Shown here: in pieces, positions 28,609 through 44,466 of the stretch
How the letters are laid out: the number at the start of each line of letters is the position of its first letter
Position numbering within the stretch: the first letter of the stretch is position 1
NCBI RefSeq assembly: GCF_000745855.1
Contig: NZ_JQKD01000003.1
Location: 1-64,000 of the forward strand
Direction: 5' to 3'
Length of the DNA: 64,000 bases
Source: Xenophilus azovorans DSM 13620
Lineage (GTDB): Bacteria; Pseudomonadota; Gammaproteobacteria; Burkholderiales; Burkholderiaceae_C
Notes under the pieces: model-generated
What the model saw: only the letters and a program-made list of their open reading frames with translations
What the model was told of the DNA's origin: nothing
Databases searched by the model: none
Made by a program: the position numbers and the translations under genes

Positions 28609-29625
28609 TCAGCCAACGGCGCCTGCCCGGGCCGCCTGCGCCCAGGCGAGTTCGGCAACGCGCTCGAACAGGGCGCCCATGCGCGCCGCCTGCGCATTCG
28701 CCGCGGTACCGCGAACGACCCGCCCGCGGATGCCGTGCAGGATCGCGGCGAAGCGGAACATGTTGAAGGCGATGTGGTAGTCGAGACCGGGCAGCGCACG
28801 CCGGCCGGTGCGCCGGCAGTAGGCGAGCACGTAGTCCTCCTCGGTCGGCAGGCCGTGCTGCCGTGGGTCCAGCCCCGCGATGCCGCCCTGGATGTCGCGC
28901 GGCATGCGGTAGGTCATGGCGTGGTAGGCGAAATCGGCCAGCGGGTCGCCCAGGGTCGACAGTTCCCAGTCGAGCACCGCGATCACGCGGGGTTCGCTCG
29001 GGTGGAAGATCAGGTTGTCGGCACGAAAGTCGCCGTGCACGATCGCGGTCTGTTCCTCCGCCGGCAGGTGCCTCGGCAGCCACTCGAGCAGCCGGTCCAT
29101 GGCGGGATGGCGCCCTGCCGCCGGGTCCTCCAGGTACTGCTTCGACCAGCGGGCCACCTGGCGTGCGACGTAGCCGCCGCTGCGCCCGAAGTCGCCCAGG
29201 CCGACGGCCTCCGGGGCGATCCGGTGCAGCGCAGCCAGCGCCGCGTTCATCGCGTCCATGTGGGCGGCGCGCGCCGCATGCGGCAGCCCGGAGAAGCTTG
29301 CGTCCCAGAAGATGCGGCCTTCCACCAGGTCCATGACGTAGAACGCGCTGCCGATCACGCCCGGGTCTTCGCAAAGGCCATGCACCCTGGGCACCGGGTA
29401 GCCTGCCCCGGCCAGGGCACGGATGACCCGCGCCTCGCGCTCGATCGCATGGGCTCCTTTCAGCAACGGGCCGGGCGGCTTGCGGCGCAGCACGTAGTTC
29501 GCGCCGGGCGTGCGCACCCGGTAGGTGGGGTTGGACTGCCCGCCGGCGAATTTCTCCAGCGCGACCGGGCCGGCGAATCCGGCCACACGCTGCGCCATCC
29601 AGCGTTCGAGATGGGCGATGTTCAT
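28609..29625 (-). CDS. Acyl-CoA kinase-like phosphotransferase (ACAD10/11-APH domain, LvaA-like)
   Basis: A 338-aa protein of the aminoglycoside-phosphotransferase fold, specifically the ACAD10/11 N-terminal type. Motifs: GGQSNPTYRV (glycine loop), YVLRRKPPG (ATP Lys), HGDFRADNLIFHP (catalytic Asp) and VLDWELSTLGDPLADFAYH (metal Asp). Family members such as LvaA in Pseudomonas levulinate catabolism phosphorylate the 4-hydroxyl of 4-hydroxyacyl-CoA. It is last in a seven-gene operon. Its start overlaps the stop of an ACAD gene (ATGA), the expected enzymatic partner. Substrate inferred from family only. Confidence 0.85.
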   Translation of the reverse strand: MNIAHLERWMAQRVAGFAGPVALEKFAGGQSNPTYRVRTPGANYVLRRKPPGPLLKGAHAIEREARVIRALAGAGYPVPRVHGLCEDPGVIGSAFYVMDLVEGRIFWDASFSGLPHAARAAHMDAMNAALAALHRIAPEAVGLGDFGRSGGYVARQVARWSKQYLEDPAAGRHPAMDRLLEWLPRHLPAEEQTAIVHGDFRADNLIFHPSEPRVIAVLDWELSTLGDPLADFAYHAMTYRMPRDIQGGIAGLDPRQHGLPTEEDYVLAYCRRTGRRALPGLDYHIAFNMFRFAAILHGIRGRVVRGTAANAQAARMGALFERVAELAWAQAARAGAVG

Positions 29626-30809
29626 GCGCGCAGCGCCAGCGCGTCGCGCTTGATCTTGCGCGCCAGGGCCCACCGGTGCACCTCCGACGGGCCGTCGTAG
29701 ATGCGGAAGGCGCGCGTCTCGCGGAACACCTGTTCGACGACCGTGTCGCGCGCGACGCCCGTTCCGCCCATCACCTGCACGCAGCGGTCGGCGATGCGAA
29801 AGAGCGCTTCGGACACCGCGACCTTGGTCATCGAACTCTCGGTGGTGCCGGGCAGGCCGGCGTCCAGCACGCCGGCGCACCAGTCGATCATCAGCGCGCA
29901 TTGCTGCAGCTCGATGGCGTTGTCCGCCAGCATGAAGCCGACCCCCTCGTGGTCCACCAGCAGTTTGCCGAAGCCGCTGCGGGTCGTGGCATAGCCGGTG
30001 GCGATCTCCTGCGCGCGGGTGGCCGCGCCCAGCCAGCGCATGCAGTGCGACAGACGCGCCGGCGCGAGCCGCACCTGCGCATGGCGGAACCCTTCGTCCA
30101 CCTCGCCGAGCACGTGCTCGTCGGACAGCAGCAGGTCGTCGATCAGCACCTGTGCATGGCCGCCCGGCATGGCGCTGTCGATGGTGTCGACGATGCGCTC
30201 GATGCGCACGGCGGGATGCGGCAGTTCCGTCAGGAACAGCGTCGCCCGGCCCGCTTCCGGCGCGCCGGTGCGCGCCATCACGATGCCGACCGTGGCGCCC
30301 TGCGCCCCCGTGATGAACATCTTGCGCCCGGAAATGCGCCACCGGCCGCCCTCGCGCGTGGCGGTCGTGCGCAGCATCGATGGATCGGAGCCGGCGCCCT
30401 GCTGCCCGGCGGGTTCGGTCATGAAGAAGGCCGAGCGCGCCTCGCCGCGCACGAGCGGTGCCAGGAAGCGCTCCTTCTGCAAGGGCGTTCCGATGCGGCC
30501 CAGCAGGAGCATGTTGCCCTCGTCCGGCGCCATGGTGTTCACCGCCACGGGGCCGAGCGGCGACAGGCCGCTGGCGCGCAGCACCACCGCCGTCTCGCGC
30601 TGGGTGAGATGGCTGCCGTCGGGCAGGATGTGCGGCGTGAGCACGCCGGCTTCGCGTGCACGGGAACGCAGTTCGCGCACCAGGTCGTCGGAAGGCCCGT
30701 GGGGACCGCAGCGGGCATCTCGCTCGTATGCCAGCACGGTGGATCGGACGAAGGCCTCGACCCGCTCGGCCAGCGCGCGGCTGCGTTCGGAGGGGAATGT
30801 CGATGTCAT
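29622..30809 (-). CDS. Acyl-CoA dehydrogenase, ACAD10/11-like
   Basis: A 395-aa dehydrogenase-fold protein. The beta-domain has FFMTEPAGQQGAGSDPSMLRTTA and GRWRISGRKMFITGAQGATVGIVMART. The stretch VRLAPARLSHCMRWLGAATRAQEIA parallels the [13 protein letters not shown] signature of ACAD10/11, and the end is YDGPSEVHRWALARKI. ACAD11-like enzymes act on 4-phosphoacyl-CoAs, removing phosphate and giving 3-hydroxyacyl-CoA through an enoyl intermediate. The start at 30809 fits the family; it lies between two phosphotransferase genes, 4 nt from the upstream one and overlapping the downstream one. Confidence 0.87.
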   Translation of the reverse strand: MTSTFPSERSRALAERVEAFVRSTVLAYERDARCGPHGPSDDLVRELRSRAREAGVLTPHILPDGSHLTQRETAVVLRASGLSPLGPVAVNTMAPDEGNMLLLGRIGTPLQKERFLAPLVRGEARSAFFMTEPAGQQGAGSDPSMLRTTATREGGRWRISGRKMFITGAQGATVGIVMARTGAPEAGRATLFLTELPHPAVRIERIVDTIDSAMPGGHAQVLIDDLLLSDEHVLGEVDEGFRHAQVRLAPARLSHCMRWLGAATRAQEIATGYATTRSGFGKLLVDHEGVGFMLADNAIELQQCALMIDWCAGVLDAGLPGTTESSMTKVAVSEALFRIADRCVQVMGGTGVARDTVVEQVFRETRAFRIYDGPSEVHRWALARKIKRDALALRA

Positions 30810-30813
30810 GGGA

Positions 30814-31875
30814 TCAGGCGGCGCACGGCGCGCGATGGACGAGTTCCCAGGCCAGCCGGGCACGTGTCAGGACGTTCTTCCTGCGGCTCAGGCCGGCGGC
30901 GGGCGCGATGCCGTCCAACGCGCGCCTGTAGGCCCCCTGCGCGATCGCGGCCAGCTTGAACACGTTGACGGCGATGTAGAAGCGCCAGTGCGGGATGCCG
31001 TCCAGGCCGCGCAGCGCGCAGTAGCGGCGCACCAGTTCGGATTCCTCCGGGATGCCGAGCGACCGCCAGTCGGCGCCCTCCCAGCCGATCGGGCCCTCGA
31101 ACAGGTGATGGGCGAGGCAACCGTAGGCCACGTCGCAGAAGGGGTCGCCCAGCGTCGAGAGTTCCCAGTCGAGCACGGCGACGACGCGCGGCTGCGCGGG
31201 ATGGACGATCAGGTTGCCGAGGCGGAAGTCGCCGTGCACGATGCGCGCGGGCTGCGCCGGCGGCTGGTGGGCCTGCAGCCACGCCGCGAGTTTCTCCATC
31301 TCCGGGATGTCGTCGGTCTGGGCTGCGCGGTATTGCCGGATCCAGCGCTCGACGAGCCGGCCGAGGAAATTGTCGGGCCGGCCGTAGTCGGCCAGCCCCA
31401 CCGCGGCCGGCTCGACGGCATGCAGCCGCGCGAGCGTCTCCATCTTGGCGCCGTACACCGCATCGCGCTCGGCCGCCGTGCTGCCCGGCATGGAAGGATC
31501 GCCGAAGATGCGCCCGGGCACATGGTCCATCAGGAAGAAGCTCTGCCCCAGGACCGCCGTGTCCTCGCACAGAAAATGCACACGCGGCACCGGCACGCCG
31601 GTGCCGTCCAGGGCGCGCATCACCCGGAACTCGCGATCGACCTGGTGGGCCGAAGGCAGCAGTTGCCCGGAAGGCCGCTTGCGCAGCACGAACTCGCGCC
31701 GCGCTCCGTCGCGCATCTCGGCGCTCAGCGCATAGGTCGGGTTGGAGTAGCCGCCGGGAAACTGCCGCACCTGCAGGGCGCCCGCATAGCCCGCCAGGTG
31801 GGCGGCCAGGTAGCGGTGCAGCGCCTCCTCGTCGAAGCGGTTCCGCGGCAGCACCTCCGTCGTTTCGTTCAGCAT
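30814..31875 (-). CDS. Acyl-CoA kinase-like phosphotransferase (ACAD10/11-APH domain, LvaA-like)
   Basis: A 353-aa APH-fold protein of the ACAD10/11 type: QFPGGYSNPTYAL, FVLRKRPSGQLLPSAHQVDREFRVMRAL, VHGDFRLGNLIVHPAQPRVVAVLDWELSTLGDPFCDVAYG. The catalytic Asp in HGD and the metal Asp in DWE are present. It is more similar to the kinase at 42153-43190 than to its operon neighbour at 28609-29625. Two kinases in one operon suggests either two substrates or a heteromer. It lies 17 nt after an ABC permease gene and 4 nt before the ACAD gene, linking uptake with phosphorylation. Confidence 0.86.
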   Translation of the reverse strand: MLNETTEVLPRNRFDEEALHRYLAAHLAGYAGALQVRQFPGGYSNPTYALSAEMRDGARREFVLRKRPSGQLLPSAHQVDREFRVMRALDGTGVPVPRVHFLCEDTAVLGQSFFLMDHVPGRIFGDPSMPGSTAAERDAVYGAKMETLARLHAVEPAAVGLADYGRPDNFLGRLVERWIRQYRAAQTDDIPEMEKLAAWLQAHQPPAQPARIVHGDFRLGNLIVHPAQPRVVAVLDWELSTLGDPFCDVAYGCLAHHLFEGPIGWEGADWRSLGIPEESELVRRYCALRGLDGIPHWRFYIAVNVFKLAAIAQGAYRRALDGIAPAAGLSRRKNVLTRARLAWELVHRAPCAA

Positions 31876-31892
31876 GTCCTCTTTCTTCCTCG

Positions 31893-32651
31893 TCAACTGC
31901 GCACCCAGAACACGAGCCGGCGCTGCGCGATCCGAACCAGCAGCCCGCCGGCGACGCCCATGGCGCACAGCACGACGATGGCCGCGAACATCATCGAGAC
32001 GTCGAGCTCCTGCGAGCGCGCCTTGATCACGTAGCCCAGTCCCTCGGTGGCCGCGATGAATTCCGACACGACCACGCCGATCAGGCTGAACACCACCGCG
32101 ACCTGCAGCGACGCGAGGAGATAGGGCGCCGCCGCCGGCAGCCGGACGTTCCACAGCGTATGGAGCGCCGACGCGCCGCAGACACGCAGCAGGTCGAGAT
32201 GCGAACGGTCTGCGCCACGCAGGCCCGCCACCGCCGCGATGAACGCGGGGAAGAAGGCCAGCATCGCCGCGGTGAACACCTTGGAAGCCGCGCCGAAGCC
32301 CAGGTAGGCCACGATCAGCGGCGCCAGCGCGACCTTCGGCACCGATTGAACCGCGGTGACCAGCGGAAGCAGGAATGTCTCCAGCAGCGGCACCAGCGCG
32401 ATCAGCGCGCCCGCCGCGACGCCGAGCCCCACGCCGATGGCCAGGCCTGCCAGCGCCGCGCGGCCGGTGGCCAGGATGTGCGGATGGAGCGTGCCGTCCA
32501 CCAACCCGGCCTTCATCGCCGCCGCCACCTCCTGCGGCGGGGGCAGCACCGATCTGTCCAGGGCGCCCGCGTGCACGGCCCAGGCCCAGAGCAGCACCAG
32601 TGCCCCCAGGGTCGCCGTCGATGCCAATGCCGTCTTCCAGGCTTCCTTCAT
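31893..32651 (-). CDS. ABC transporter permease, NitT/TauT type
   Basis: A 252-aa inner-membrane permease with about six membrane segments and the EAA-type cytoplasmic loop around VCGASALHTLWNVRLPAAAPYL. It belongs to the SsuC/TauC group that moves sulfonates, nitrate, pyrimidines or aromatic acids together with a periplasmic binding protein. The ATG at 32651 overlaps the stop of the first permease gene (ATGA). With the adjacent permease it forms a heterodimeric pore, unusual because many NitT/TauT systems use a single permease gene. Confidence 0.9.
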   Translation of the reverse strand: MKEAWKTALASTATLGALVLLWAWAVHAGALDRSVLPPPQEVAAAMKAGLVDGTLHPHILATGRAALAGLAIGVGLGVAAGALIALVPLLETFLLPLVTAVQSVPKVALAPLIVAYLGFGAASKVFTAAMLAFFPAFIAAVAGLRGADRSHLDLLRVCGASALHTLWNVRLPAAAPYLLASLQVAVVFSLIGVVVSEFIAATEGLGYVIKARSQELDVSMMFAAIVVLCAMGVAGGLLVRIAQRRLVFWVRS

Positions 32652-33427
32652 GCCGTGGCCTCCACGCCGCCGGTGTCGCGCTGCCAGAACACCAGCCGGC
32701 GCCGCACGGCCCGCAGCAGCGCGCTGGCAAGGATGCCGATGGCAGCCAGCACGGCCAGCGCGCCGAAGACGGTGGCGACGTCGAGCGTGGCGGAGGCGGA
32801 CTGGATGCGGACACCCAGTCCCCGCTCTCCGGCCACCAGTTCCATCACCACGGCGGCGAGCAGCGCGAAGACCACCGACACTTCCAGGCCGACGAAGAGC
32901 TGCGGCGCCGCCGCGGGAAGCCGCACCGACCAGAAGATCCGCCCCGGCCCCGCGCCTGCGCTGCGCAGCAGGTCCACCAGGTTCTGATCGACCGCACGAA
33001 AGCCGGTGAAGCCGTTGACGAACACCGGATAGATGCAGGCCAGCGCCACCAGCGTCACGCTGCTGCGCGCTCCGAAGCCGACCCACAGGTAGATGAGCGG
33101 GGCAAGCGCCACCTTGGGAATCGACTGGAAGGCCATCACCGGCACCATCAGCATCCGCTCCGCGGTGCGCGACAGGGCCATGCAGGCGGCCAGCGCGAAG
33201 GCGAAGCTGCAGCCGATCGCGTAGCCGGCCGCCGCGGACGCCACGGTGGCGAGCGCATCCGTCGCCAGCTCGCCCGAGCGCAAGGCGGCCCGGAAGCTGC
33301 GGGCCGTATCCGCAGGGTCCGGCAGCAGCATGGGCGGCGCACCGAAGACCCGCACCGCCAGGAGCCACGCCAGCAGCACCGCCGCCAGCGTGACGAAGGG
33401 AGCGATCGGACGCAGCAGTCCCCTCAC
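32648..33427 (-). CDS. ABC transporter permease, NitT/TauT type
   Basis: A 259-aa permease with about six membrane helices and the EAA loop SAGAGPGRIFWSVRLPAAAPQLF. It starts with GTG at 33427, preceded directly by GGAGGAGGC, and the GTG overlaps the ATPase stop (GTGA). A shorter ATG-initiated form would lose the first membrane helix, so the GTG is preferred. It is paralogous to the next permease (shared MAFQSIPKVALAPLIYLWVGFGA versus AVQSVPKVALAPLIVAYLGFGA), probably by an old tandem duplication. Confidence 0.9.
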   Translation of the reverse strand: MRGLLRPIAPFVTLAAVLLAWLLAVRVFGAPPMLLPDPADTARSFRAALRSGELATDALATVASAAAGYAIGCSFAFALAACMALSRTAERMLMVPVMAFQSIPKVALAPLIYLWVGFGARSSVTLVALACIYPVFVNGFTGFRAVDQNLVDLLRSAGAGPGRIFWSVRLPAAAPQLFVGLEVSVVFALLAAVVMELVAGERGLGVRIQSASATLDVATVFGALAVLAAIGILASALLRAVRRRLVFWQRDTGGVEATA

Positions 33428-34242
33428 GCCTCCTCCATGCGCGCGAAGGTGCCGCGCAGCGCACCGGCCAGCGCCGCGAAGCGCGGGCTGCCCATCGTCT
33501 CCAGGGTCCGCGGCCGCGGCAGATCGATCTCCATGGTCTGCAGCACGCGGCCGGGCCGCGGCGAAAGCACCACCACGCGGTCCGACAGGAACACCGCCTC
33601 GGGGATCGAGTGGGTGATGAAGAGGACCGACTTGCCGGTGGTGCTCCAGATGCGCTGCAGTTCCACCATCATGTTCTCGCGCGTCATGGCATCCAGTGCG
33701 GCGAAGGGCTCGTCCATCAGCAGCAGCGCCGGGTCGTGCACCAGTGCACGGACGATGCCCACCCTCTGCTGCATGCCGCCCGAGAGTTCGTGCGGATGGT
33801 GGCGGGCGAAGGCATCCAGCTTCACCATGCGAAGCAGCTCGAGCGCCCGCTCGCGCGCGGCCGGCACGTCGCCGCGCATGGCACGCACCGGCACCAGGAC
33901 GTTCTCCAGCACGTTCTTCCACGGCAGCAGCGTGGGCTGCTGGAACACGATGCCCACCTCGCGGCGCGGCCCGGTGACCGGGCTGCCCGAAAGCTCGATC
34001 TGCCCCGCGCCGGGCCGCAGCAGGCCGCTGGCGAGCTTCAGCAGCGTGGACTTTCCGCAGCCCGACGGCCCGAGCACCGACACGAAGGCGCCCCGCGGCA
34101 CCTCGAAGGACAGCCGCTGCAGGGCGTGCACCGGTCCGCGGCTGGAGGCGTAGGTCAGGTCCAGCCCGCGCACCGACAGCGAGGCTGCGCGCGGCGGCGC
34201 GCCGGGCAGCGTTGCGGGAAGCCCGCCGCTCGCAGCACGCAT
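33424..34242 (-). CDS. ABC transporter ATP-binding protein, NitT/TauT type
   Basis: A 272-aa ATPase subunit: Walker A GPSGCGKST (residues 58-66), Q-loop in FQQPTLLPW, signature LSGGMQQR, Walker B LLLMDEPFAALD, and the switch His in ITHSIPEAV. This is the SsuB/TauB pattern. The first 20 residues are a low-complexity leader. A GAGG ribosome-binding site precedes the ATG at 34242, 8 nt after the binding-protein gene. It energises the two permeases encoded next. Confidence 0.93.
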   Translation of the reverse strand: MRAASGGLPATLPGAPPRAASLSVRGLDLTYASSRGPVHALQRLSFEVPRGAFVSVLGPSGCGKSTLLKLASGLLRPGAGQIELSGSPVTGPRREVGIVFQQPTLLPWKNVLENVLVPVRAMRGDVPAARERALELLRMVKLDAFARHHPHELSGGMQQRVGIVRALVHDPALLLMDEPFAALDAMTRENMMVELQRIWSTTGKSVLFITHSIPEAVFLSDRVVVLSPRPGRVLQTMEIDLPRPRTLETMGSPRFAALAGALRGTFARMEEA

Positions 34243-34250
34243 CGGCGGCC

Positions 34251-35300
34251 TCAGTTCGCCCGGCGCCGCACGGCGGCGGCGTCGAACTTGTTGAATTCCA
34301 GCACGAACCGGTTCGTCAGCACCTCGTCCGCCGACACGGCCGCGCCGGCGGGGATCGTGCCGCCCTGCTCCAGCACCGTCACGTAGGTGTCGATCACCGC
34401 GGGGTCGAAGGCACCCCACTGCGGATTGCGCGTGAGCGCGTACTGGATGGACGCGTAGTTGGCGTCGAGCACGGCCACCGTGCCCTTGATCCAATCGGCC
34501 TCCTTGTCGGCGGTGGGCCTGCTGGTGGGATCGAAGCGCCAGAACGCTCGGGCACAGGGCTGCGGCGCGGCCGCGCAGGCCACCGAGGACTTCGCCATCG
34601 CACGGCCCATCCCGGCAACGAGCGGCGCACGCTCGCGGATGGTGTCGACGTGCGCCATCATCGCGGACGAGAAGATCGGCCGGAGCTTGTCCGAATGCGG
34701 GATGCGCCGGATGGCGATGCCGGAGAGCGTCATCTTCGCGTCCTCGCTGGCCCACAGGTTCAGGGCATCGACCTTGCCCTCCTGAAGCTGCTTCCACGCG
34801 GCGGGGCCGCTGCCCACCGGCACCAGGGCCACGTCGGCCGGCACCGACAGGCCGTGCTCCTTGAGCTGTGCGCGGGTCATCATGATGTTGCCGGCGGCCA
34901 TGCTCACCACGCCGAGCTTGCGGCCCTTGAAGTCCGCCACCCCCCGGATCGGGCTGTCGGCAAGCACCGCGTAGTCGTAGACCGTCGATGCCAGGTAGTT
35001 GTAGACGAAGCGTACCGGCACCGGCGTCTTCTTGGCGGCGTTGGCGATCAGCAGCGACGATTCGCCCAGGCCGAACAGCACCGACTTGTTCGCCAGCTGC
35101 GGCACGACCACCGCCGTCCCGCCGGTGAATCCGGCCAGTTGCAGGTCGATGCCCTCCTCGGCGAAGAACCCGAGCTCCTTGCCGTACAGGAGATCCGAGT
35201 ACTGGGAGCCGACCGTGGTCGGAATGGCGAGGACGACCTTTTCCAGCGCCGCCGCGTTCAGCACGTTCAGTGCGAACATCACGGCAAGAAACCGTTTCAT
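34251..35300 (-). CDS. ABC transporter substrate-binding protein, NMT1/SsuA-like
   Basis: A 349-aa periplasmic binding protein of the NMT1/THI5-SsuA fold with a short signal peptide ending near LNAAAL. Motifs: GLGESSLLIANAA, DFKGRKLGVVSMAAGNIMMTRAQLKEHGL, and LQEGKVDALNLWASEDA, typical of NitT/TauT receptors. It is the first gene of a seven-gene operon (receptor, ATPase, two permeases, kinase, ACAD, kinase). AGGAGACA precedes the ATG, a TAGACT -10 lies just upstream, and dyad site 2 lies 20 nt further. The ligand is unknown; the operon suggests a hydroxy acid. Confidence 0.9.
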   Translation of the reverse strand: MKRFLAVMFALNVLNAAALEKVVLAIPTTVGSQYSDLLYGKELGFFAEEGIDLQLAGFTGGTAVVVPQLANKSVLFGLGESSLLIANAAKKTPVPVRFVYNYLASTVYDYAVLADSPIRGVADFKGRKLGVVSMAAGNIMMTRAQLKEHGLSVPADVALVPVGSGPAAWKQLQEGKVDALNLWASEDAKMTLSGIAIRRIPHSDKLRPIFSSAMMAHVDTIRERAPLVAGMGRAMAKSSVACAAAPQPCARAFWRFDPTSRPTADKEADWIKGTVAVLDANYASIQYALTRNPQWGAFDPAVIDTYVTVLEQGGTIPAGAAVSADEVLTNRFVLEFNKFDAAAVRRRAN

Positions 35301-35321
35301 GGCTTGTCTCCTGTGAGAACC

Positions 35322-35367
35322 AGTCTAGGAAGGGTGCAGCGGCACGACACCGTCGAAAGCGACGATT
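35322..35367 (-). promoter_or_regulatory. 20-bp dyad (site 2) plus TAGACT promoter of the NitT/TauT-kinase operon
   Basis: The dyad at 35348-35367 has core CGTCG-AAAG-CGACG (15 of 20 matches to the 52541 dyad). On the minus strand TAGACT occupies 35327-35322, exactly 20 nt downstream, so the dyad is centred near -42.5. The ATG at 35300 follows 21 nt after the -10 with an AGGAGACA ribosome-binding site in the short leader. Confidence 0.65.
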
Positions 35368-35385
35368 CGCGCGCCGGCATCGCTC

Positions 35386-36087
35386 TCAGCCGATCATGGC
35401 CGCGGCGACGCGTTGCGGGTCCTGCAGTTCGTGGCCGGCCCCCTGGTCCACGATCTCGCCGGACTGCAGCACCACGAACCGGTCGGCCAGTTGCGCCGCG
35501 AAGCGATGGTTCTGCTCGGCGAGCACCAGCGACAGGCCCATGTGCCGCAGTTCGCGGATCGTCTCGATCAGCTCGCCCAGGATCACCGGTGCCAGGCCCT
35601 GGGTCGGTTCGTCGAGCAGCAGCACGCTGGGGCGCCGCGCCAGGGCTACCGCGATCGCCAGCATCTGCTGCTCGCCGCCGCTCAGCATCCCGGCGGGCTG
35701 GTGCGGCCGGTGTCGCAGGATCGGGAACATGCCGAGCAGCCGCTCCCTCATCCCGGCGCGCTCGGCCTTCGGCAGCAGCCGGAGCCCGAGGCGCAGGTTC
35801 TCGTCCACCGTGAGCGGCATGAAGAGGTTGCGCCGCCCCTCGGGCACCAGCGCGATGCCTCGGAAGGCACGCCGGTCCGCGGCGCACCGATCCAGGGCCT
35901 CGCCGTCCAGCAGCACGCTGCCGCTGGCGGACACGACGCCCGCAATGGCGCCCAGCAGGCTGCTCTTGCCCGCGCCGTTCGGCCCGAGAACCACGAGGAA
36001 CTCGCCGCTGTCCGCGCCGAGGCCGATGTCGTGGCACACCTGAAGCCGGCCATAGCGCGCGCACAGCCGCGCCACCTGAAACGTCAT
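35386..36087 (-). CDS. livF: Branched-chain amino acid-type ABC transporter ATPase LivF
   Basis: A 233-aa ATPase of the LivF type: Walker A GPNGAGKSS near residue 35, GIALVPEGRRNLFMPLTVDENL (LivF hallmark), signature LSGGEQQMLAIAVAL, Walker B LLLDEPTQGLAP. LIV-family importers in Burkholderiales transport amino acids, amides, urea or aromatic acids. Its ATG overlaps the livG stop (ATGA). Last gene of the six-gene LIV operon. Confidence 0.93.
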   Translation of the reverse strand: MTFQVARLCARYGRLQVCHDIGLGADSGEFLVVLGPNGAGKSSLLGAIAGVVSASGSVLLDGEALDRCAADRRAFRGIALVPEGRRNLFMPLTVDENLRLGLRLLPKAERAGMRERLLGMFPILRHRPHQPAGMLSGGEQQMLAIAVALARRPSVLLLDEPTQGLAPVILGELIETIRELRHMGLSLVLAEQNHRFAAQLADRFVVLQSGEIVDQGAGHELQDPQRVAAAMIG

Positions 36088-36893
36088 GCGGCCTCCCTGA
36101 CCGGCCTGACCGCGGCCTCGTCTTCCGATGCCTCGGCGCGGCCGAGGTAGCTCTCGACGACGCGGGCATCGCCGGCCACCGCATCCGGCGTGCCAGTGCT
36201 GAGCACGCGGCCGGTCTCGAGCACGGTCACCTCGTCGCACAGTGCGCGTATGAGGCCGAAGTTGTGCTCCACCAGCAGCACGCCGATGCCGCGCGCGGCC
36301 AGCGCACGGATCTGCTGGGCCAGCAGCGCCTGCTCCTTGCGCGTCAGCCCGGCGGCCGGTTCGTCGAGCAGTACGTAGCGCGCGCCTGCCGCCAGGCACC
36401 GCGCAACCTCCACCAGCCGCACCTGGCCCATGGACAGCCTGCCGATCTCGCTGCCGGCCAGCGGCAGCAGGCCGAGCTGCTCCATGAGCTGCGCGGCCGC
36501 GTCGCGGAGCCGGCGCTCCTCGCTCCGCGCCGAGGGCAGGCCGAGCATGGCGGCCATGAAGCCGCTGCGCAGGGTGCTGTAGAAGCCCGCCAGCACCGCT
36601 TCGCGCACGCTCGAACGCATGTCCACCCGCGGCGTCTGGAAGGTGCGCGCCACGCCGGCGCGCACCAGGCGATGCGGCGCCCATCCGGTGACGACCTGCC
36701 CGTCCACGGTGATCCGCCCGGCCGTCGGCTGCAGGAAGCCGGTGATGCAGTTGAACAGCGTGCTCTTGCCCGAGCCGTTGCGGCCGATCAGGCCGTGGAT
36801 GCGGCCCGGGCTCACGGCGATCGATGCATCCTGCAGCGCGACCACCCCGCCGAACTGCATGCGCACGCCGGTGGCGCGAAGCTCCCGCGTCAT
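36084..36893 (-). CDS. livG: Branched-chain amino acid-type ABC transporter ATPase LivG
   Basis: A 269-aa ATPase of the LivG type: Walker A GRNGSGKST near residue 38, VARTFQTPRVDMRSSVREAVLAG, Walker B YVLLDEPAAGL, and LLVEHNFGLIRALCDEVTVLE. The signature motif reads LSMGQ instead of LSGGQ, with Met at a normally Gly position; some LivG relatives show similar variation, so activity is still expected. Overlaps both neighbours by 4 nt. Confidence 0.92.
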   Translation of the reverse strand: MTRELRATGVRMQFGGVVALQDASIAVSPGRIHGLIGRNGSGKSTLFNCITGFLQPTAGRITVDGQVVTGWAPHRLVRAGVARTFQTPRVDMRSSVREAVLAGFYSTLRSGFMAAMLGLPSARSEERRLRDAAAQLMEQLGLLPLAGSEIGRLSMGQVRLVEVARCLAAGARYVLLDEPAAGLTRKEQALLAQQIRALAARGIGVLLVEHNFGLIRALCDEVTVLETGRVLSTGTPDAVAGDARVVESYLGRAEASEDEAAVRPVREAA

Positions 36894-37840
36894 GCCGTGC
36901 CCTTGCGTGCGGCGCGCCATGTCCGCGTGGTGCGATCGGCATAGCCGAGCAGCCCGTCGCGGGCCAGGAGCAGGATCAGGACCAGTGCGCCGCCGAAGAA
37001 CAGGCCCTGCACTTCCTGTGCGGGCAGCAGGTGCATCAGCAGGCTGAGCAGCACCGTGCCGATGACCGGGCCGAGCACGTAGCCGACGCCGCCGACCACC
37101 GCCATCAGCAGCACCGAGATCGATGCATGCGTGTCGAGCGAGCTGGGCGACATGTAGGTGATGTAGTGCACGTACAGCCATCCCGCCAGGCCCGCGAGGG
37201 CGGCGGCGAATGCGAATCCGGCGCTCATCAGCGCGGGAACGTCGACGCCGTCGGCGGTCGCGCGGGCGCGGTCGTGCCGCACCGTGTTGAGCGCGCGCCC
37301 GTAGGCCGATCGCATGAGGTTCTCGTACAGGAACACCGCCAGGGCCACGACGAGCCAGACCAGCCCGGCGAACATGCCCGGCGTCGTCACGCCGGGCAGC
37401 GACGGCACGCCGGTCAGGCCGACGTAGCCGCCGGTGACGCTGTCCCAACTGCGGGCGACGATCTCCACCACGGTGCTCAGGGCCAGCGTGGCGAGCGCGG
37501 CGGCCAGGTGGTCCAGCGGCGTCACGAAGCGCGCCAGGACCCAGGCCAGCGCCGTCGGCAGCGCGATGGCCGGCACCAGGGTCAGGTAGGGCGACACGCC
37601 GAAGCGCAGGGCCAGGATGGCGGACAGGTAGCCGCCGACGGCCGCGATCACCGCCTGCGCCATCGACAGGATGCCCGCCTGCCCGTAGCTCAGCCCCACG
37701 GACAGCGCGATCAGCGCCTGGATGCCGATGAGGACGGCGTTGTCCGTGCCCACCGGCCGGCCCTGCACCGCGAGCACGCCGACGGCGGCCGCCACGACGA
37801 TGATGCAGGTGTTGGGACGTTCGCGCAGCACCCGCATCAT
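36890..37840 (-). CDS. livM: Branched-chain amino acid-type ABC transporter permease LivM
   Basis: A 316-aa permease with about nine membrane segments and the LivM motifs LSYGQAGILSMAQAVIAAVGGY near residue 52 and GRALNTVRHDRARATADGVDVPALMSAGFAFAAALAGLAG near 190. It pairs with LivH to form the pore. The start at 37840 has two tandem ATG codons; the first overlaps the livH stop (ATGA). Confidence 0.92.
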   Translation of the reverse strand: MMRVLRERPNTCIIVVAAAVGVLAVQGRPVGTDNAVLIGIQALIALSVGLSYGQAGILSMAQAVIAAVGGYLSAILALRFGVSPYLTLVPAIALPTALAWVLARFVTPLDHLAAALATLALSTVVEIVARSWDSVTGGYVGLTGVPSLPGVTTPGMFAGLVWLVVALAVFLYENLMRSAYGRALNTVRHDRARATADGVDVPALMSAGFAFAAALAGLAGWLYVHYITYMSPSSLDTHASISVLLMAVVGGVGYVLGPVIGTVLLSLLMHLLPAQEVQGLFFGGALVLILLLARDGLLGYADRTTRTWRAARKGTA

Positions 37841-38691
37841 GGCCGGTCTCCACTGAAGCGGCTCTGGAAGAAGAACTGCGCCGACAGCACCGCCAGCACG
37901 AACAGCGAAGGCACCAGCGACGCCACGACGCTGCTGGCGTAGCCGGCGCTCACGGCCTCGACGATCCCCATCGCGGCCCCGCCCGCGAAGCCGCGCAGAG
38001 GGCTTCGGATGCCGAAGATGATCGCCGCGCCGAAGCCGGCGAGGGTCAGCGGCAGCGGAATCGTGTAGTCCAGCCCGGAGCTGCACACGATCAGCAGGCC
38101 CGCCAGGCCGGCGACCGCGCCGCCCGCCAGGAAAGCCCCGCACTGCACGCGCGTCACGGGGATGCCGGCCAGCTCCGCGCCCCGCGGGTTCACGGCCGCC
38201 GCGCGCATCATCCGGCCGAGGTCGGTGCGGTAGAGCACCACGTAGAGCAGGCCCACCATGGCCAGCGCGATGCCGAGGTTGATGAAGCCCTGGGGGCTGA
38301 TCCGGATGCCCCCTACGTCCCAGAAGGTGGCGAAGGACGGCAGCACGAAGGCTTGCGTGCTCCAGCGCCACAGCACCAGGGAGGCGATGCCGACGGCCAG
38401 GCCGAAGCTGGCCAGTGCCACCGTGATCGAATCCTCGTTGCCACGCCGCTTCAGCAGCACGAAGACGAGCGCCATGAGCGCCGCCGCGAGCAGCGCGGCG
38501 CCGATACCGGCGGCGAACCCGGCCACGCCGCCGACCGTGACGGCGACCGCCGCCGCGATGAGGGCGTAGGCGCCGACGGCGAAGTCGATGGTCCCGGTGG
38601 TCAGGAACAGCAGGCTCATCGGCAGCGCGAGCAGGCCGTAGACGGCACCCGACAGCAGGCCGCGGACCCCGTACTCCAGGAGCTGGAACAT
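37837..38691 (-). CDS. livH: Branched-chain amino acid-type ABC transporter permease LivH
   Basis: A 284-aa permease with about eight membrane segments. It shows the LivH start pattern (GVRGLLSGAVYGLLALPMSLLFLTTGTIDFAVGAY) and the conserved loop GRMMRAAAVNPRGAELAGIPVTRV. It starts 10 nt after the second binding-protein gene and overlaps livM by 4 nt. Confidence 0.92.
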   Translation of the reverse strand: MFQLLEYGVRGLLSGAVYGLLALPMSLLFLTTGTIDFAVGAYALIAAAVAVTVGGVAGFAAGIGAALLAAALMALVFVLLKRRGNEDSITVALASFGLAVGIASLVLWRWSTQAFVLPSFATFWDVGGIRISPQGFINLGIALAMVGLLYVVLYRTDLGRMMRAAAVNPRGAELAGIPVTRVQCGAFLAGGAVAGLAGLLIVCSSGLDYTIPLPLTLAGFGAAIIFGIRSPLRGFAGGAAMGIVEAVSAGYASSVVASLVPSLFVLAVLSAQFFFQSRFSGDRP

Positions 38692-38701
38692 CCGGTCCGC
38701 C

Positions 38702-39850
38702 TCACTTTCGCGTGCGGAACTCGCCGTCGCGGATCTCCGTGATCACGAGCGACGATTCGTTCAGCACTTCGTGGTAGTCGCTGGACAGGCAGGTCTTGCC
38801 CCGGGTGTACTGCGCGAACCCGCACAGGGACTCGATGGCGTCGCGCATGGCCGGCCCGGTGGGCTCGCCGGGGATCTTCCCGGCCGCGGCCACGATCGCC
38901 ATGATCGCGTCGGCGCCGATCAACTCCATCCAGCCACCGGGGGTGCGTCCCGCCTTCTTCACCACCTCCGCGAACTTCGCCTCGCTCGGGCTCGGATCGT
39001 GCGCGAGGTTGCCGATGCTGGTGACGCGGATGCCCTCGCCGGCCTTGCCCACCGAGTCCACGAAGGTCTTCTGCACCATCGCCGCGCCGGCGTAGGTCAC
39101 GGCCTTCAGGCCGATCTGCTCCGCCGTCTTCACGTAGGCGGTGGCCAGCGGCGTCGAGGCCACCTGCAGCAGAACCGCATCGGGCCGGGCGTTGCGCAGC
39201 CGCGTGGCCTGCGCGCCGACATCAATGGCGTTGTAGGGCACGCTCACGACCTCCACGATCTCCACGCCCAGGTCCGCGGCGACGCTGCGGGCATAGTCCG
39301 CGCCTGCCTTCCCGTAGGCATCCTCCTGGTGGAAGATGCCCACGCGCTTCAGGCCATGCCGGGCCATGTCGGCCAGGATGCCGTGCACCACCTTGCTGTC
39401 GTCGACGCCCACGCGGAAGATCCAGGGGAAGAAGGAGTGCTTGCGGTCCGTCACGCCGATGGTGGCGGCCGGCGCCAGCAGCGGCACCTTCAGGCGCTCG
39501 GCCACCGGCCCGGCGGCCAGCGCGCCGCCGCCGGTGCCGGGCCCGACGATCGCCACCACCTTGTGGCTCGCGACCAGTTGGGTCACGCCGCGGGCGGCCT
39601 CGGTCGGGTTGGTCTTGTCGTCGTAGTGAAAGAGCTCGATCCTGCGGCCGTTCACGCCGCCGCCGGCGTTGACGTGCTCCGTCGCCAGCACCAGCGCGTC
39701 GCGCTCCGGAATGCCGAAGCTCGCCGCCGGCCCGCTGGTGCTGAGCACCACGCCGATCCGGATCGGCTCCGCCGCCTGCGCCCCGAGGCCGAGCAACACC
39801 CCGGCCGCCCAACCCAGCACCGTTCTCGCGAGATATCTCCTGGCCTTCAT
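38702..39850 (-). CDS. LIV-type ABC transporter substrate-binding protein (second of a tandem pair)
   Basis: A 382-aa periplasmic receptor of the Leu/Ile/Val-binding fold, with a signal peptide ending GAQAAEP and starting RIGVVLSTSGPAASFGIPERDAL. It is a close paralogue of the protein encoded just upstream: long shared blocks include GVNGRRIEL, YDDKTNPTEAARGVTQLV, IGPGTGGGALAAGPVA and RVTSIGNLAHDPSPSEAKF. The ATG at 39850 is chosen since AGGAG lies 8 nt ahead; in-frame ATGs at 39856 and 39880 (the latter overlapping the upstream stop as ATGA) are alternatives. Ligand unknown. Confidence 0.9.
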   Translation of the reverse strand: MKARRYLARTVLGWAAGVLLGLGAQAAEPIRIGVVLSTSGPAASFGIPERDALVLATEHVNAGGGVNGRRIELFHYDDKTNPTEAARGVTQLVASHKVVAIVGPGTGGGALAAGPVAERLKVPLLAPAATIGVTDRKHSFFPWIFRVGVDDSKVVHGILADMARHGLKRVGIFHQEDAYGKAGADYARSVAADLGVEIVEVVSVPYNAIDVGAQATRLRNARPDAVLLQVASTPLATAYVKTAEQIGLKAVTYAGAAMVQKTFVDSVGKAGEGIRVTSIGNLAHDPSPSEAKFAEVVKKAGRTPGGWMELIGADAIMAIVAAAGKIPGEPTGPAMRDAIESLCGFAQYTRGKTCLSSDYHEVLNESSLVITEIRDGEFRTRK

Positions 39851-39876
39851 CCTCATGTCTCCTGGTCGTTGGTCGT

Positions 39877-41028
39877 TCATGGGCGCGAGCGGAATGCACC
39901 GTCGCGGATCTCGGTGATCACCAGCGAACTCTCGCCGAAGCCGTCATGGTTGTCCTTCGAGAAGCAGGCCCGTCCGCGCGTATGGATCTCGAAGTCGCAC
40001 AGCGTCTCGATCGCGTCGCGCATCGCCTCGCCGGTCGGCTCGCCGTCGATCCTGCGGGCGGCGGCCACGGCCGTCATCAGCCCGTTGCTTCCGATCAGCT
40101 CCATCCACCCGCTGGGCGTCTTGCCCGCCTTCTTCAGGATCTCGCCGAACTTCGCCTCGCTCGGCGACGGGTCGTGCGCCAGGTTGCCGATGCTGGTGAC
40201 CCGCATGCCGTCGCCGGCCTTGCCGACCGCGTCGAGGAAGCTCTTCTGCACCAGGCCGGAGCCGCCGTAGGTCGGTACCTTCAGCCCGACCTGGTCCGCG
40301 GCCTTGACGTAGGCCGCGCCCAGCGAGGAGATCGCGACCTGCGTGAAGACCGCATCGACCTTCGCATTGCGCAGGCGCGTGGCCTGCGCGCTCACGTCGG
40401 TGGCGTTGTAGGGCGCGCTGACCGACTCCACCACCTCGAAGCCGAGTTCCGGCGCCAGTTGCGCGGCGTAGTCGGCGCCGGCCTTGCCATAGGCGTCCTC
40501 CTGGTAGAAGACGCCGATGCGCCTGCCGCCGTTCTTCACGATGTCGGCCAGGATGCCGCGCACCGTGACGAGGTCGTTCACGCCCACGCGGAACACCCAG
40601 GGATAGAAGGCGTTCTGGCGGTCGGTCACGGCGATGGTGCCGCCCGGCACCAGCAGCGGGACCCGCAGCCGGGCCGCCACCGGCCCCGCGGCGAGGGCGC
40701 CGCCGCCGGTGCCGGGCCCGATGATCGCGACGACCCGGTGGTTGGACACGAGCTGCGTCACGCCCCGCGCCGCCTCCGTCGGGTTGGTCTTGTCGTCGTA
40801 GTGGATCAGCTCGATCCTGCGGCCGTTGACGCCGCCGTTCGCGTTGATGTGCTCGGCCGCGACCACGATCGCGTCGCGCTCGGGAATGCCGAACACCGCC
40901 GCCGGGCCGCTGGTGCTGAGCAGCACGCCGAGCTTCAGGCTGCCCTGCGCATGCACCGCAAACGACAACGCCGCGCCCGCGGCGAGCGCCGCCATGGCCC
41001 TGAAGGCCCTGCCGAAGTTCCAGTCCAT
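39877..41028 (-). CDS. LIV-type ABC transporter substrate-binding protein (first of a tandem pair)
   Basis: A 383-aa periplasmic receptor with a signal peptide cleaved near AVHAQGS, then KLGVLLSTSGPAAVFGIPERDAI. It opens the six-gene LIV operon behind the dyad pair at 41084-41136. The leader holds AAGGAGACATGAGCG before the ATG, almost the same as the leader of its downstream paralogue, so the duplicated unit included the ribosome-binding site. Differences between the two proteins cluster around surface loops, so ligand specificity may differ. Confidence 0.91.
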   Translation of the reverse strand: MDWNFGRAFRAMAALAAGAALSFAVHAQGSLKLGVLLSTSGPAAVFGIPERDAIVVAAEHINANGGVNGRRIELIHYDDKTNPTEAARGVTQLVSNHRVVAIIGPGTGGGALAAGPVAARLRVPLLVPGGTIAVTDRQNAFYPWVFRVGVNDLVTVRGILADIVKNGGRRIGVFYQEDAYGKAGADYAAQLAPELGFEVVESVSAPYNATDVSAQATRLRNAKVDAVFTQVAISSLGAAYVKAADQVGLKVPTYGGSGLVQKSFLDAVGKAGDGMRVTSIGNLAHDPSPSEAKFGEILKKAGKTPSGWMELIGSNGLMTAVAAARRIDGEPTGEAMRDAIETLCDFEIHTRGRACFSKDNHDGFGESSLVITEIRDGAFRSRP

Positions 41029-41195: not shown

Positions 41196-42125
41196 ATGCA
41201 TATCAAGGAACTGGCGGGCGGCCTGGCCTTCCCCGAGGGGCCGGTGGCCATGGACGACGGCTCGGTGCTGTTCGTCGAGGTGGCCGGCGACAGCCTCAGG
41301 CGCTGGACGCCCGATGGGCGCGTGAGCACCGTGGCCGTGCTCGGCGACGGACCCAACGGCGCGGCGATGGGCCCCGACGGGGCGTGCTACGTGGCCAACA
41401 ACGGCGGCTTCGGCTGGAAGGAGGAGAAGGGCGGACGCCGCCCGCACGGCGTCGGCAGCCGCTACCAGGGCGGCTGCATCCAGCGCGTGAACCTGCACAC
41501 CGGGCGCGCGGAGGTCCTCTACGACCAGTGCGACGGCCACAGGCTGCTCGGCCCGAACGACCTCGTGTTCGACGATCAGGGCGGCTTCTGGTTCACCGAC
41601 CTGGGCAAGACCGTCGAGTCGGACCGGCGCCGGGACCTCGGCAGCGTCTACTACGCCAAGGCCGACGGCAGCTTCATCCAGGAAGTCATCTTTCCCATCT
41701 TCACGCCCAACGGCATCGGGCTTGCGCCCGACAACAAGACGCTCTATGTCGCGGACACCGAGTCGGCGCGGCTGTGGGCCTGGGACATCCTGGCGCCCGG
41801 CGTGGTGCGCAAGGAGCCCTTTCCGTCCGCCACCGGCGGACGGCTGCTGGCCGCCTGCGGCGACCACAGGCTTCAGCGCTTCGACTCGCTCGCGGTCGAC
41901 AGCGAAGGCAACGTGAACGTGGGCACGCTGGTCCATGGCGGGGTCACCGTGGTGCCGCCCGAGGGCGGGCGCGCGACGCACGTCCCGATCGACGACCTCT
42001 ACGTCACCAACCTGTGTTTCGGAGGCAAGGACTCGCGCACCGCGTTCCTGACCCTGTCGTGGTCGGGCAAGCTGGTGGCCGCACCGTGGCCGACGCGGGG
42101 CCTGCGCCTGAACCACGCGTGCTGA
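41196..42125 (+). CDS. SMP-30/gluconolactonase family lactone hydrolase
   Basis: A 309-aa six-bladed beta-propeller of the SMP-30/gluconolactonase/LRE family, which binds a divalent metal and opens sugar or aliphatic lactones. Metal-site motifs: FPEGPVAMDDGSVLFVE (Glu in blade 1), GPNDLVFDDQGGFWFTD (Asn and Asp), FTPNGIGLAPDNKTLYVADT (Asn) and FDSLAVDSEGNVNVGTL (Asp). No signal peptide, so cytoplasmic. GGAG lies 5 nt before the ATG. It is divergent from the LIV operon and shares its dyad region, and ends 27 nt before a kinase gene; a lactone opening to a hydroxy acid would feed that kinase. Confidence 0.87.
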   Translation: MHIKELAGGLAFPEGPVAMDDGSVLFVEVAGDSLRRWTPDGRVSTVAVLGDGPNGAAMGPDGACYVANNGGFGWKEEKGGRRPHGVGSRYQGGCIQRVNLHTGRAEVLYDQCDGHRLLGPNDLVFDDQGGFWFTDLGKTVESDRRRDLGSVYYAKADGSFIQEVIFPIFTPNGIGLAPDNKTLYVADTESARLWAWDILAPGVVRKEPFPSATGGRLLAACGDHRLQRFDSLAVDSEGNVNVGTLVHGGVTVVPPEGGRATHVPIDDLYVTNLCFGGKDSRTAFLTLSWSGKLVAAPWPTRGLRLNHAC

Positions 42126-42152: not shown

Positions 42153-43190
42153 TCAGCCGCCCCGGCTCGCCAGCGCCCAGCCGAGCCGCGCCCGGCGGGC
42201 GACGTACTTCTTCTTCTCGATGGAATCGGCCGGCGCATGGCCCGCCAGGGCGCGCCGGTAGTTGATCTGCGAGATGACCGCGATCTTGAAGATGGAAAAG
42301 GCCACGTAGAAGGTCCAGTGCGGGATCTCGGCGAGTCCGGCACGCCGCCGGTAGCTCTCCACATAGTCGGCCTCCGCCGGGATGCCGAGCGCGCCCGGGT
42401 CCGCATCCTGGAAGCCGATGGGCAGCTCCCGCAGGTGCCAGCACAGGCAGTTGTAGGCGAGGTCGCAGAGCGGATCGCCGAGCGTGCTCATCTCCCAGTC
42501 GAGCACGGCGGCCACCTCCGGCCGATCGGGGGCCAGGATCAGGTTGCCCAGCCGGTAGTCGCCATGCACCAGGGCCGCGCGCGCCTGGCGCGGCGCGTGG
42601 TCGTGCAGCCAGGCGCCCAGGCGCTCCATCTCCGGGATGTCCTCGGTGCGCGCGTCGCGGTACTGGGCGAGCCAGCGCTCGAGCTGCCGCGCCACGTAGC
42701 GCTCCGGGCGGCCGTAGTCGTCCAGGCCGATCACGCGGACATCGACCGCATGCAGCCGCGCCAGCACGGCGTTCATCTCGTCCCACGCGGCGCGGCGCTG
42801 CGCGGGGCTGCAGCCCGGCATCGCCGGGTCCGCGTGCACGCGGCCCGGGACGCGGTCCATGACGTAGAAGGACTGTCCCAGCACGGCGCTGTCCTCGCAC
42901 AGCAGGTGCACGCGCGGCACCGGCACCCCGCTGCCCTGCAGCGCCTGCATCACACGGAACTCCCGCTCCACCCGGTGCGCCGAGTTCGACAGCGCACCCT
43001 CCGGACGCTTGCGCAGCACGTACTCGCGCCCGCCGGCGCCGAGCGCGTAGGTGGGATTGGAGGAGCCGCCCGGAAACCGGTGCACGTGCAGGCCGGCTTC
43101 GCAGCCGGGCAGGCGGCCGGCGAGCCAGCGCTGCAGCGCGGCGACGTCCAGCCGGCCGGCGGGCGGCGCCTCGGCCGCGGCGCCGGTCAT
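42153..43190 (-). CDS. Acyl-CoA kinase-like phosphotransferase (ACAD10/11-APH domain, LvaA-like)
   Basis: A 345-aa APH-fold protein: FPGGSSNPTYAL, YVLRKRPEGALSNSAHRVEREFRVM, VHGDYRLGNLILAPDRPEVAAVLDWEMSTLGDPLCDLAYN. Catalytic and metal Asp residues are intact. It is the third such kinase in the window and is closest to the one at 30814-31875. The ATG at 43190 is preferred to an in-frame TTG at 43238 that would overlap the ACAD gene. It follows the ACAD11-like gene by 31 nt; kinase plus ACAD11 is exactly the two-domain content of mammalian ACAD11. Confidence 0.86.
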   Translation of the reverse strand: MTGAAAEAPPAGRLDVAALQRWLAGRLPGCEAGLHVHRFPGGSSNPTYALGAGGREYVLRKRPEGALSNSAHRVEREFRVMQALQGSGVPVPRVHLLCEDSAVLGQSFYVMDRVPGRVHADPAMPGCSPAQRRAAWDEMNAVLARLHAVDVRVIGLDDYGRPERYVARQLERWLAQYRDARTEDIPEMERLGAWLHDHAPRQARAALVHGDYRLGNLILAPDRPEVAAVLDWEMSTLGDPLCDLAYNCLCWHLRELPIGFQDADPGALGIPAEADYVESYRRRAGLAEIPHWTFYVAFSIFKIAVISQINYRRALAGHAPADSIEKKKYVARRARLGWALASRGG

Positions 43191-43221
43191 GGCCCCGGGC
43201 GCCTCCCCTGGCGGCACGGCG

Positions 43222-44466
43222 TCACGTCGATGCGGCAAGGTAGGGGGCCAGCTCGTTCTTCGCGATCGCGTTGCGGTGCACCTCGTCCGGGCCGTCGGCG
43301 ATGCGCAGGGTGCGCGCGTTCGCCAGGAACCTGGCGAGCGGGAAGTCCTGGCACAGGCCGCCCGCGCCGTGCGCCTGGATGGTCCAGTCGATCACCTGCT
43401 GCGCCATGCCCGGCGCCACCGCCTTGATCATCGCGATGTCGTTCTTCGCCACCTTGTTGCCGTGCTCGTCCATCCGCCACGCCGCACGCAGCGTGAGCAG
43501 GCGCGCCATCTCGATGCGGCTGCGCGCCTCGGCGATGCGCTCGTGCCAGACGGACTGTGTCGCCAGGACCTTGCCGAAGGCCGTGCGGCCGGCCAGGCGG
43601 CGGCACATCAGCGCCAGGCAGCGCTCGGCCAGGCCGATCAGGCGCATGCAGTGGTGGATGCGCCCGGGCCCCAGGCGGCCCTGTGCGATCTCGAATCCGC
43701 GCCCCTCGCCCAGCAGCATGTTGCCGGCCGGCACGCGCACGTTCTCGAACACGATCTCCATGTGGCCGTGCGGCGCATCGGAGAAGCCCAGCACGTCGAG
43801 GTGGCGCAGCACCTTGATGCCGGGCGTGCCCGCCGGCACGAGGATCATGCTCTGTTGCGCGTGCCTGGGCCCCTCGGGGTCGGACTTGCCCATGGTGATG
43901 TAGACCTTGCAATGCGGATTGCCCGCGCCAGAGGTCCACCACTTGCGGCCGTTGATCACGTAGTCGTCCCCGTCGCGCTCGATGCGGGTGCCGATGTTGG
44001 TCGCGTCGCTGGAGGCGACTTCCGGCTCGGTCATCGCGAAGGCCGAACGGATCCGGCCTTCCATCAGCGGCTTGAGCCACTGCTCCTTCTGCTCGGCCGT
44101 GCCGTAGAGCGCCAGCGTCTCCATGTTGCCGGTGTCCGGCGCCGAGCAGTTGAACACCTCGCTGCACCACGAGACCTTGCCCAGCTCCTCGGCGAGCGGC
44201 GCGTATTCCAGGTTGGTCAGGCCGGCGCCCATCACGCCCGACTTCTGCGTGGTGTGCAGCGGCAGGAACAGGTTCCACAGCCCTGCCTCGCGCGCCCTGG
44301 GCTTGAGGTTCTCGATGATCACCGAAGGCGTCCAGGGCGCGCCGGCCTCCGCGTTCTTTCGCGCCTCCTGGTAGACGTCCTTCTCCGCGGGATAGATGTG
44401 GCGGTCCATGAACTCGCGCAGACGGGCCTGGAGTTCGAGCGTCTTGGGAGAGTGATTGAAATTCAT
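43222..44466 (-). CDS. ACAD11-like acyl-CoA dehydrogenase
   Basis: A 414-aa protein matching the dehydrogenase part of ACAD10/11 closely: [30 protein letters not shown], then [42 protein letters not shown], and [18 protein letters not shown]. The family converts 4-phosphoacyl-CoA to 3-hydroxyacyl-CoA. The ATG at 44466 has no ribosome-binding site but a TAGACT -10 ends 7 nt upstream, so the mRNA is probably leaderless. It shares the dyad at 44500-44519 with the divergent AtuA-like gene. Confidence 0.9.

Follow-up and report, generated by a model that had tools for sequence, protein, structure and literature searches.

We analysed a stretch of 64,000 nucleotides (nt) from Xenophilus azovorans DSM 13620 (assembly GCF_000745855.1, contig NZ_JQKD01000003.1, positions 1-64,000), hereafter the window, whose coordinates are used for the genes described. 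On its minus strand lies a trio of open reading frames encoding, in this order, a putative kinase (K1), an acyl-CoA dehydrogenase (ACAD) termed ACADc and a second putative kinase (K2), of 353, 395 and 338 residues, respectively. A 4-nt gap (30810-30813) separates the K1 stop codon from the ATG of ACADc, and the ATGA at 29622-29625 is common to the stop of ACADc and the start of K2, yielding a 4-nt overlap. Both K1 and K2 match the Pfam APH family (E = 8.8e-53 and 1.1e-55, respectively), and ACADc matches the Pfam acyl-CoA dehydrogenase domains. Gene boundaries were taken from a simple codon-usage caller, which set the start of ACADc too late, and 30809 was used instead. Coordinates, reading frames and Pfam families agree with a preliminary description of this DNA, which had reported a kinase-ACAD-kinase trio with the same gap and overlap. 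It had also spoken of a "split" ACAD10/11 system; the genes are separate in every bacterial locus we looked at, so that nothing need have split.

For mouse ACAD11, mutation and modelling described in the available part of PMC12440821 identified D753 as the catalytic residue and R626, H634 and R637 as those holding the 4-phosphate. Sequence alignment revealed that ACADc keeps all the phosphate-handling and catalytic residues of this enzyme (Table 1), and that the ordinary ACADs compared mostly have Glu or Gly at the position of its D372. Also present is the proline of the PDxGNM motif, which we take to be the proline named in the accessible text of PMC11342911. The equivalents of R626, R631, H634, C635, M636, R637 and D753, together with this proline, are invariant in all 126 ACADc-type loci, a set that includes 89 loci at 65% identity or more and in which some genes, having been fetched twice, are counted twice. 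The X. azovorans genome itself yielded 75 ACAD-like matches; among the 13 read for the motif, it is present in four (ACADc, ACAD42, ACADc21 and ACADc9) and absent from nine. A divergent ACAD on contig C9 of the same genome (L020, 9843-10991) has HCLR for HCMR, is 46%-47% identical to ACADc and has no adjacent kinase; an SMP-30-like gene is located nearby.

The AlphaFold model of ACADc, with a predicted local distance difference test score (pLDDT) of 92, is nearest to three ACAD11-type structures, human ACAD11 (2wbi; Z 46.1, root-mean-square deviation (rmsd) 2.6, 384 residues aligned), 4hr3 (Z 46.0) and 8v3u (Z 44.4), followed by another chain (Z 43.3), where rows within 1 Z unit count as ties. 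We further built a quick tree of 52 ACADs, without bootstrap and with long outgroup branches. The canonical clade, holding mouse ACAD11, ACAD42 and ACADc21, is separate at a Shimodaira-Hasegawa-like approximate likelihood ratio test (SH-aLRT) value of 100, ACADc forms another clade with the C9 enzyme (96), and the union of the two is recovered at 94, making them sisters. In this tree, whose rows do not include LvaC, ACADc is not a member of the canonical ACAD11 clade, and it shares 29%-33% identity with the canonical members. These comparisons support, by inference, filing ACADc as a putative phosphate-eliminating ACAD10/11-like enzyme on a sister branch of the canonical clade.

The best sequence matches of both kinases are 3dxp and the ACAD11 kinase, the latter at E = 1.3e-78 for K1 and 6.2e-68 for K2. 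The available part of PMC12440821 discusses four residues of the ACAD11 kinase, namely R86 and R176, for which contacts with coenzyme A (CoA) were proposed from simulation, and D220 and N225. The catalytic Asp and Asn (D220 and N225) and the DWE site are matched by D216, N221 and D236 of K1 and likewise in K2, and the CoA-contact arginines by R81 and R173 of K1 and the aligned residues of K2, as read by eye from the alignments. K1 keeps R81-E82, R173, HGD216..N221 and D236-WE, and the same motifs are found in K2. A structural model of K1 (pLDDT 91), for which the input alignment contained one wrong row, comes nearest to 3dxp (Z 37.9), with the 25-hydroxysteroid kinase 9fsg and Rv3168 (Z 28.4) at later ranks.

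A tree of 73 kinases, which leaves out those of 300 residues or fewer, identical second copies and kinases missed by the gene caller, separates the two. The K2 clade contains 27 rows (SH-aLRT 100), all of them from ACADc-type loci. The nearest neighbours of K1 are K41 and K91 of its own genome (95), joined next by one kinase from another genome (98). Mouse ACAD11 sits on a long branch and has no firm position relative to the bacterial kinases. With 43%-46% identity and different clades, a tandem duplication giving K1 and K2 is ruled out. Searches in which the best few candidates per genome were scored put the closest K1 relative outside the own genome at 52% identity within the family (299 genomes, cut-off E 1e-105) and at 55% within the order (399 genomes, cut-off E 1e-100). 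At L207 (6636-11108), the nearest such context of a K1-type kinase, two unlike APH-type kinases adjoin each other in a module that also encodes a TctC-like protein and an ACAD of the type found at 26332-27606 in the window. K1 appears to have been added locally, from a group of kinases that has expanded in its own genome (K1, K41 and K91).

Relatives of ACADc at E 1e-95 or better are found in 37 of 299 family genomes including the own one, three of the others being 69%-74% and 33 being 51%-56% identical. Among 15 genomes of the genus, ACADc is present in the own genome only, and two others have a relative of 40%-41%. A scan of named genomes took the best 80 of at least 573 candidates (68%-83% identity, mostly Alpha- and Betaproteobacteria); tblastn was run on all 80, and the 69 with 1.5 kb on both sides are the basis of the adjacency counts, for which a separate neighbour list was not used, given that several loci (e.g. 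L099-L101, L103, L104 and L107) are lacking from it owing to short, duplicate or caller-missed genes. At these 69 loci, a kinase lies downstream of the ACADc-type gene in 32, upstream in three, on both sides in none, and is not adjacent in 34. A short-chain dehydrogenase/reductase (SDR) is adjacent in 25, together with a kinase in 23. In the own genome, the best SDR match (C2:74321-75067) is on the same contig about 43 kb away, at 59%, none of the other 28 matches listed exceeding 46%. Within the family, the three closest loci carry a K2 orthologue (67%-73%) directly downstream of the ACADc relative, and some kinase is found at 17 of the remaining 33, two of these being weak and one 7 kb off. 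Kinases on both sides were seen at none of the 69 ACADc loci, 36 family loci and 29 canonical loci, which rules out a conserved kinase-ACAD-kinase cassette; the earlier remark that two kinases around one dehydrogenase are unusual is borne out, with K2 as the recurrent partner. The recurrent partners of ACADc are a K2-type kinase and an SDR, as in the levulinate (lva) operon of Pseudomonas.

Further genes recur at some of the 80 loci. In the Variovorax loci L116, L120 and L126, phaE-phaC genes resembling a class III polyhydroxyalkanoate (PHA) synthase lie between the SDR and the ACADc-kinase pair, directly before ACADc (3/80, all Variovorax); in the one locus scanned, PhaC scores above the class III cut-off of NCBIfam and PhaE above that of Pfam only. 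Transhydrogenase genes occur at six of the 80, and in the Cupriavidus loci L115, L119, L121, L125 and L135 nicotinamide nucleotide transhydrogenase genes directly precede SDR-ACADc-kinase (L115 was scanned; the alpha subunit passes one NCBIfam cut-off, the beta subunit only Pfam). Both associations fit hydroxyacyl-CoA metabolism. L116 also has a protocatechuate 3,4-dioxygenase beta gene upstream.

The trio ends a same-strand run of 13 genes (28609-41028) that includes two ATP-binding cassette (ABC) importers and has gaps of at most 85 nt by our own gene calls. The six genes at 35386-41028 are possibly the head of its transcription unit. Between 28 and 45 kb, a promoter scan gave 0 promoter-like sites against 0.8 expected from shuffles, and a terminator scan 4 against 4.4, neither above background. 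The preliminary description had placed the cassette after an ABC importer in the same operon: the importer is real (31893-35300), in a run longer than described and with a second importer, but the linkage is not conserved. On the same strand and within 6 kb, where flanks reach, a TauT/NitT-type permease or binding protein was found at none of the 80 loci, and the NMT1-type binding protein was not found at E 1e-60 in any of the 14 other genomes of the genus. By these counts, a conserved system that includes the importer is not supported, and the proposal that it brings in a 4-hydroxy acid or its lactone is a guess.

Table 1. Genes and sites of the trio and of its surroundings in the window.
Feature	Position	Strand	Description
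K1	30814..31875	(-)	First gene of trio; APH-type kinase; clade common to K41 and K91 of own genome
ACADc	29622..30809	(-)	ACAD10/11-like acyl-CoA dehydrogenase; divergent sister clade
ACADc phosphate-site stretch R247..R252..H255-C-M-R258	30036..30071	(-)	Equivalent to mouse ACAD11 R626, R631, H634, R637
ACADc catalytic aspartate D372	29694..29696	(-)	Equivalent to mouse ACAD11 D753
K2	28609..29625	(-)	APH-type kinase; clade recurring next to ACADc-type genes
Two permeases, TauT/NitT-type ABC importer	31893..33427	(-)	17 nt upstream of K1
ATPase of TauT/NitT-type importer	33424..34224	(-)	Start uncertain
NMT1-type substrate-binding protein	34251..35300	(-)	TauT/NitT-type importer
Six further genes, including branched-chain-type ABC importer and two binding proteins	35386..41028	(-)	Three of the six scanned by Pfam
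SMP-30/gluconolactonase-like protein	41196..42125	(+)	Divergent from the 13-gene directon, between the two modules
K41	42153..43190	(-)	K1-clade kinase, downstream of canonical ACAD11 homologue
ACAD42	43222..44466	(-)	Canonical ACAD11-type dehydrogenase

A second module, the ACAD42-K41 pair (42153-44466), and the SMP-30-like gene (41196-42125) had been missed in the preliminary description. Canonical ACAD matches are present in 239 of 280 family genomes, and at the 29 best-scoring other canonical loci the kinase lies upstream and is of another type than K41. The SMP-30/gluconolactonase-like protein could open lactones. Near ACADc-type genes, raw counts gave SMP-30 genes within 1 kb at three of the 126 loci and, at one further locus each, 4.4 kb and 7.4 kb away, and two more matches at E ~1e-12 are uncertain; as a general partner of ACADc, such a lactonase is a weak candidate, with occasional association only. 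Beside the canonical pair, 44545-46434 (+) encodes an AtuA-type acyclic terpene utilisation protein. Seven genes of the window cluster with a TctC/Bug-type binding protein, for example those at 24400-25386 (-) and 27603-28568 (+), the Pfam scan covering 27603-28568 only.

The observed gene order, protein families, residues, clades and gene context, from which we infer every reaction, the substrates and the reason for two kinases, enable us to propose that the trio is probably a phosphorylate-and-eliminate module that feeds 4-hydroxyacyl-CoAs to beta-oxidation. The acid would derive from a 4-hydroxy acid or a lactone; alternatively, an SDR such as the one at 74.3-75.1 kb would produce it by reducing a 4-keto acid. 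K2, and probably K1 as well, would transfer a phosphate from ATP to the 4-hydroxyl of the 4-hydroxyacyl-CoA. Afterwards, the catalytic Asp of ACADc and its redox-cycling flavin adenine dinucleotide would expel the phosphate, yielding a 2-enoyl-CoA. ACADc and K2 would be the recurrent working pair, and K1, a later recruit, most likely widens the substrate range to another chain length or stereoisomer. That K1-type kinases adjoin both a canonical and an ACADc-type enzyme in the own genome is the best argument for K1 as a 4-hydroxyacyl-CoA kinase. ACAD10 is reported, in the accessible text of PMC11342911, to prefer the R isomer by a factor of about four, which makes one kinase per isomer an attractive conjecture; a chain-length split and K1 serving another enzyme are equally plausible. 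The ACAD10/11-type chemistry of the preliminary description is retained by inference from the residues of the active site, the family of the kinases, the fold predicted for ACADc and the lva-like context of relatives, with ACADc moved out of the canonical ACAD11 clade to a sister branch. More speculatively, and with little confidence, the ACADc group might be a second phosphate-eliminating branch with its own kinase clade and SDR, acting on different 4-keto or 4-hydroxy acids or lactones (with a polyester link in three Variovorax), and the two kinases here might feed both stereoisomers, getting round the R-preference of ACAD10.

Several observations weigh against this model. ACADc is 27%-33% identical to some ordinary ACADs of its own genome, so that its identity to the canonical members is no higher; kinship is therefore argued from the motif, the tree and the fold, and at such a distance in sequence the phosphorylated substrate could be a different one. 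No kinase adjoins the dehydrogenase gene at 34 of the 69 loci, and none was seen at L098, the closest among the matches listed (83%), where the contig ends 629 nt downstream with an SDR-like gene beginning there. No SDR is among the genes called in the 28609-41028 run. A phosphorylated substrate of another kind, for example a branched, cyclic or 5-hydroxy acyl-CoA, would leave the phosphate site in place and take ACADc out of 4-hydroxy acid catabolism. We consider this unlikely. It accords with the separate clade at 29%-33% identity, with the gene contexts, which vary widely among the loci listed, with the lack of an adjacent kinase at half of the loci, and with the canonical copies kept in the own genome, which a different function of ACADc would explain. 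However, all phosphate and catalytic residues are invariant, SDR and kinase are both adjacent at 23 of the 69 loci, and the class III PHA synthase and transhydrogenase genes, at three and six of the 80, fit hydroxyacyl-CoA metabolism.

The assignment of K1 to the trio is itself debatable. Its placement could be accidental, with ACAD42 (43.2 kb) or the ACAD encoded at 26332-27606 as the enzyme that K1 serves, and the cassette would then be K2-ACADc plus a neighbour; this reading is possible yet doubtful. K1 falls in a clade different from that of K2, with K41 and K91, and its nearest relative outside the own genome (55%) sits in a module with a 26332-27606-type ACAD, another kinase and a TctC protein. 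On the other hand, K1 shares its strand with ACADc and the permease gene, from which it is separated by 4 and 17 nt, respectively, and K41, of the same clade, adjoins an ACAD11-type enzyme. It is highly improbable that the kinases act on free alcohols or drugs, as enzymes of the steroid-kinase or aminoglycoside-resistance type do. Both belong to the Pfam APH family, and in alignments with the K1 model 9fsg (Z 29.1, rmsd 3.4, 332 residues aligned, 23% identity) comes before the ACAD11 kinase 8v3v, which is partly resolved (Z 23.8, 230 aligned), a ranking that also counts against the proposed module. By sequence, however, 3dxp and ACAD11 are much nearer to K1 (44% identity each in the structural alignment), the NCBIfam drug-kinase models score far under their cut-offs (42.9 and 44.6, where APH(3') requires 205), and the CoA-contact arginines are kept in both K1 and K2.

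The chemistry and both protein families are already known, the former from mammals and Pseudomonas. A literature search of incomplete coverage, including few subscription papers, came upon no account of the ACADc branch. Its sequence features allow a second set of probable 4-hydroxyacyl-CoA enzymes to be recognised in many Proteobacteria, Cupriavidus and Variovorax among them. The trio is compact and readily amenable to experiment, and the difference between its kinases makes it possible to ask directly how the phosphorylation step deals with stereochemistry or chain length.

Comparison with known systems was made through canonical homologues and papers for LvaA, LvaB, LvaC, LvaD and ACAD10. 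The 25-hydroxysteroid kinase 9fsg has the APH-like fold in common with K1 and differs in its steroid alcohol substrate and in sequence; in the available part of PMC8449060, such a kinase is described in the ATP-dependent alcohol dehydration of anaerobic cholesterol degraders. Mammalian ACAD10 and ACAD11 resemble the trio in phosphate-site and catalytic residues, in kinase motifs and in the nearest predicted fold of ACADc. In contrast to them, the trio consists of separate proteins, no HAD domain was found in it, and ACADc is about 33% identical to mouse ACAD11. The levulinate operon of Pseudomonas, with LvaA and LvaC, likewise encodes a separate APH-type kinase and an ACAD10/11-like dehydrogenase in one operon. 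It also includes LvaD, an SDR that makes 4-hydroxyvaleryl-CoA according to the accessible portions of PMC6692424 and PMC9399607, and an SDR adjoins ACADc at the 25 loci noted above. The X. azovorans run differs in having no SDR, another gene order and two kinases of different clades, and ACADc stands outside the canonical clade, whose homologues represent LvaC here. Between the trio and the permease gene there is no room for a gene of the size of LvaB, which itself was not searched for; the Pseudomonas citronellolis cluster also lacks LvaB, as stated in the available text of PMC6692424. The canonical bacterial pair of kinase and ACAD11, as on contig C21 of the own genome, has the same two families side by side; its kinase lies upstream at the 29 best-scoring other loci, whereas that of the ACADc branch lies downstream at 32 of the 35 kinase-bearing loci.

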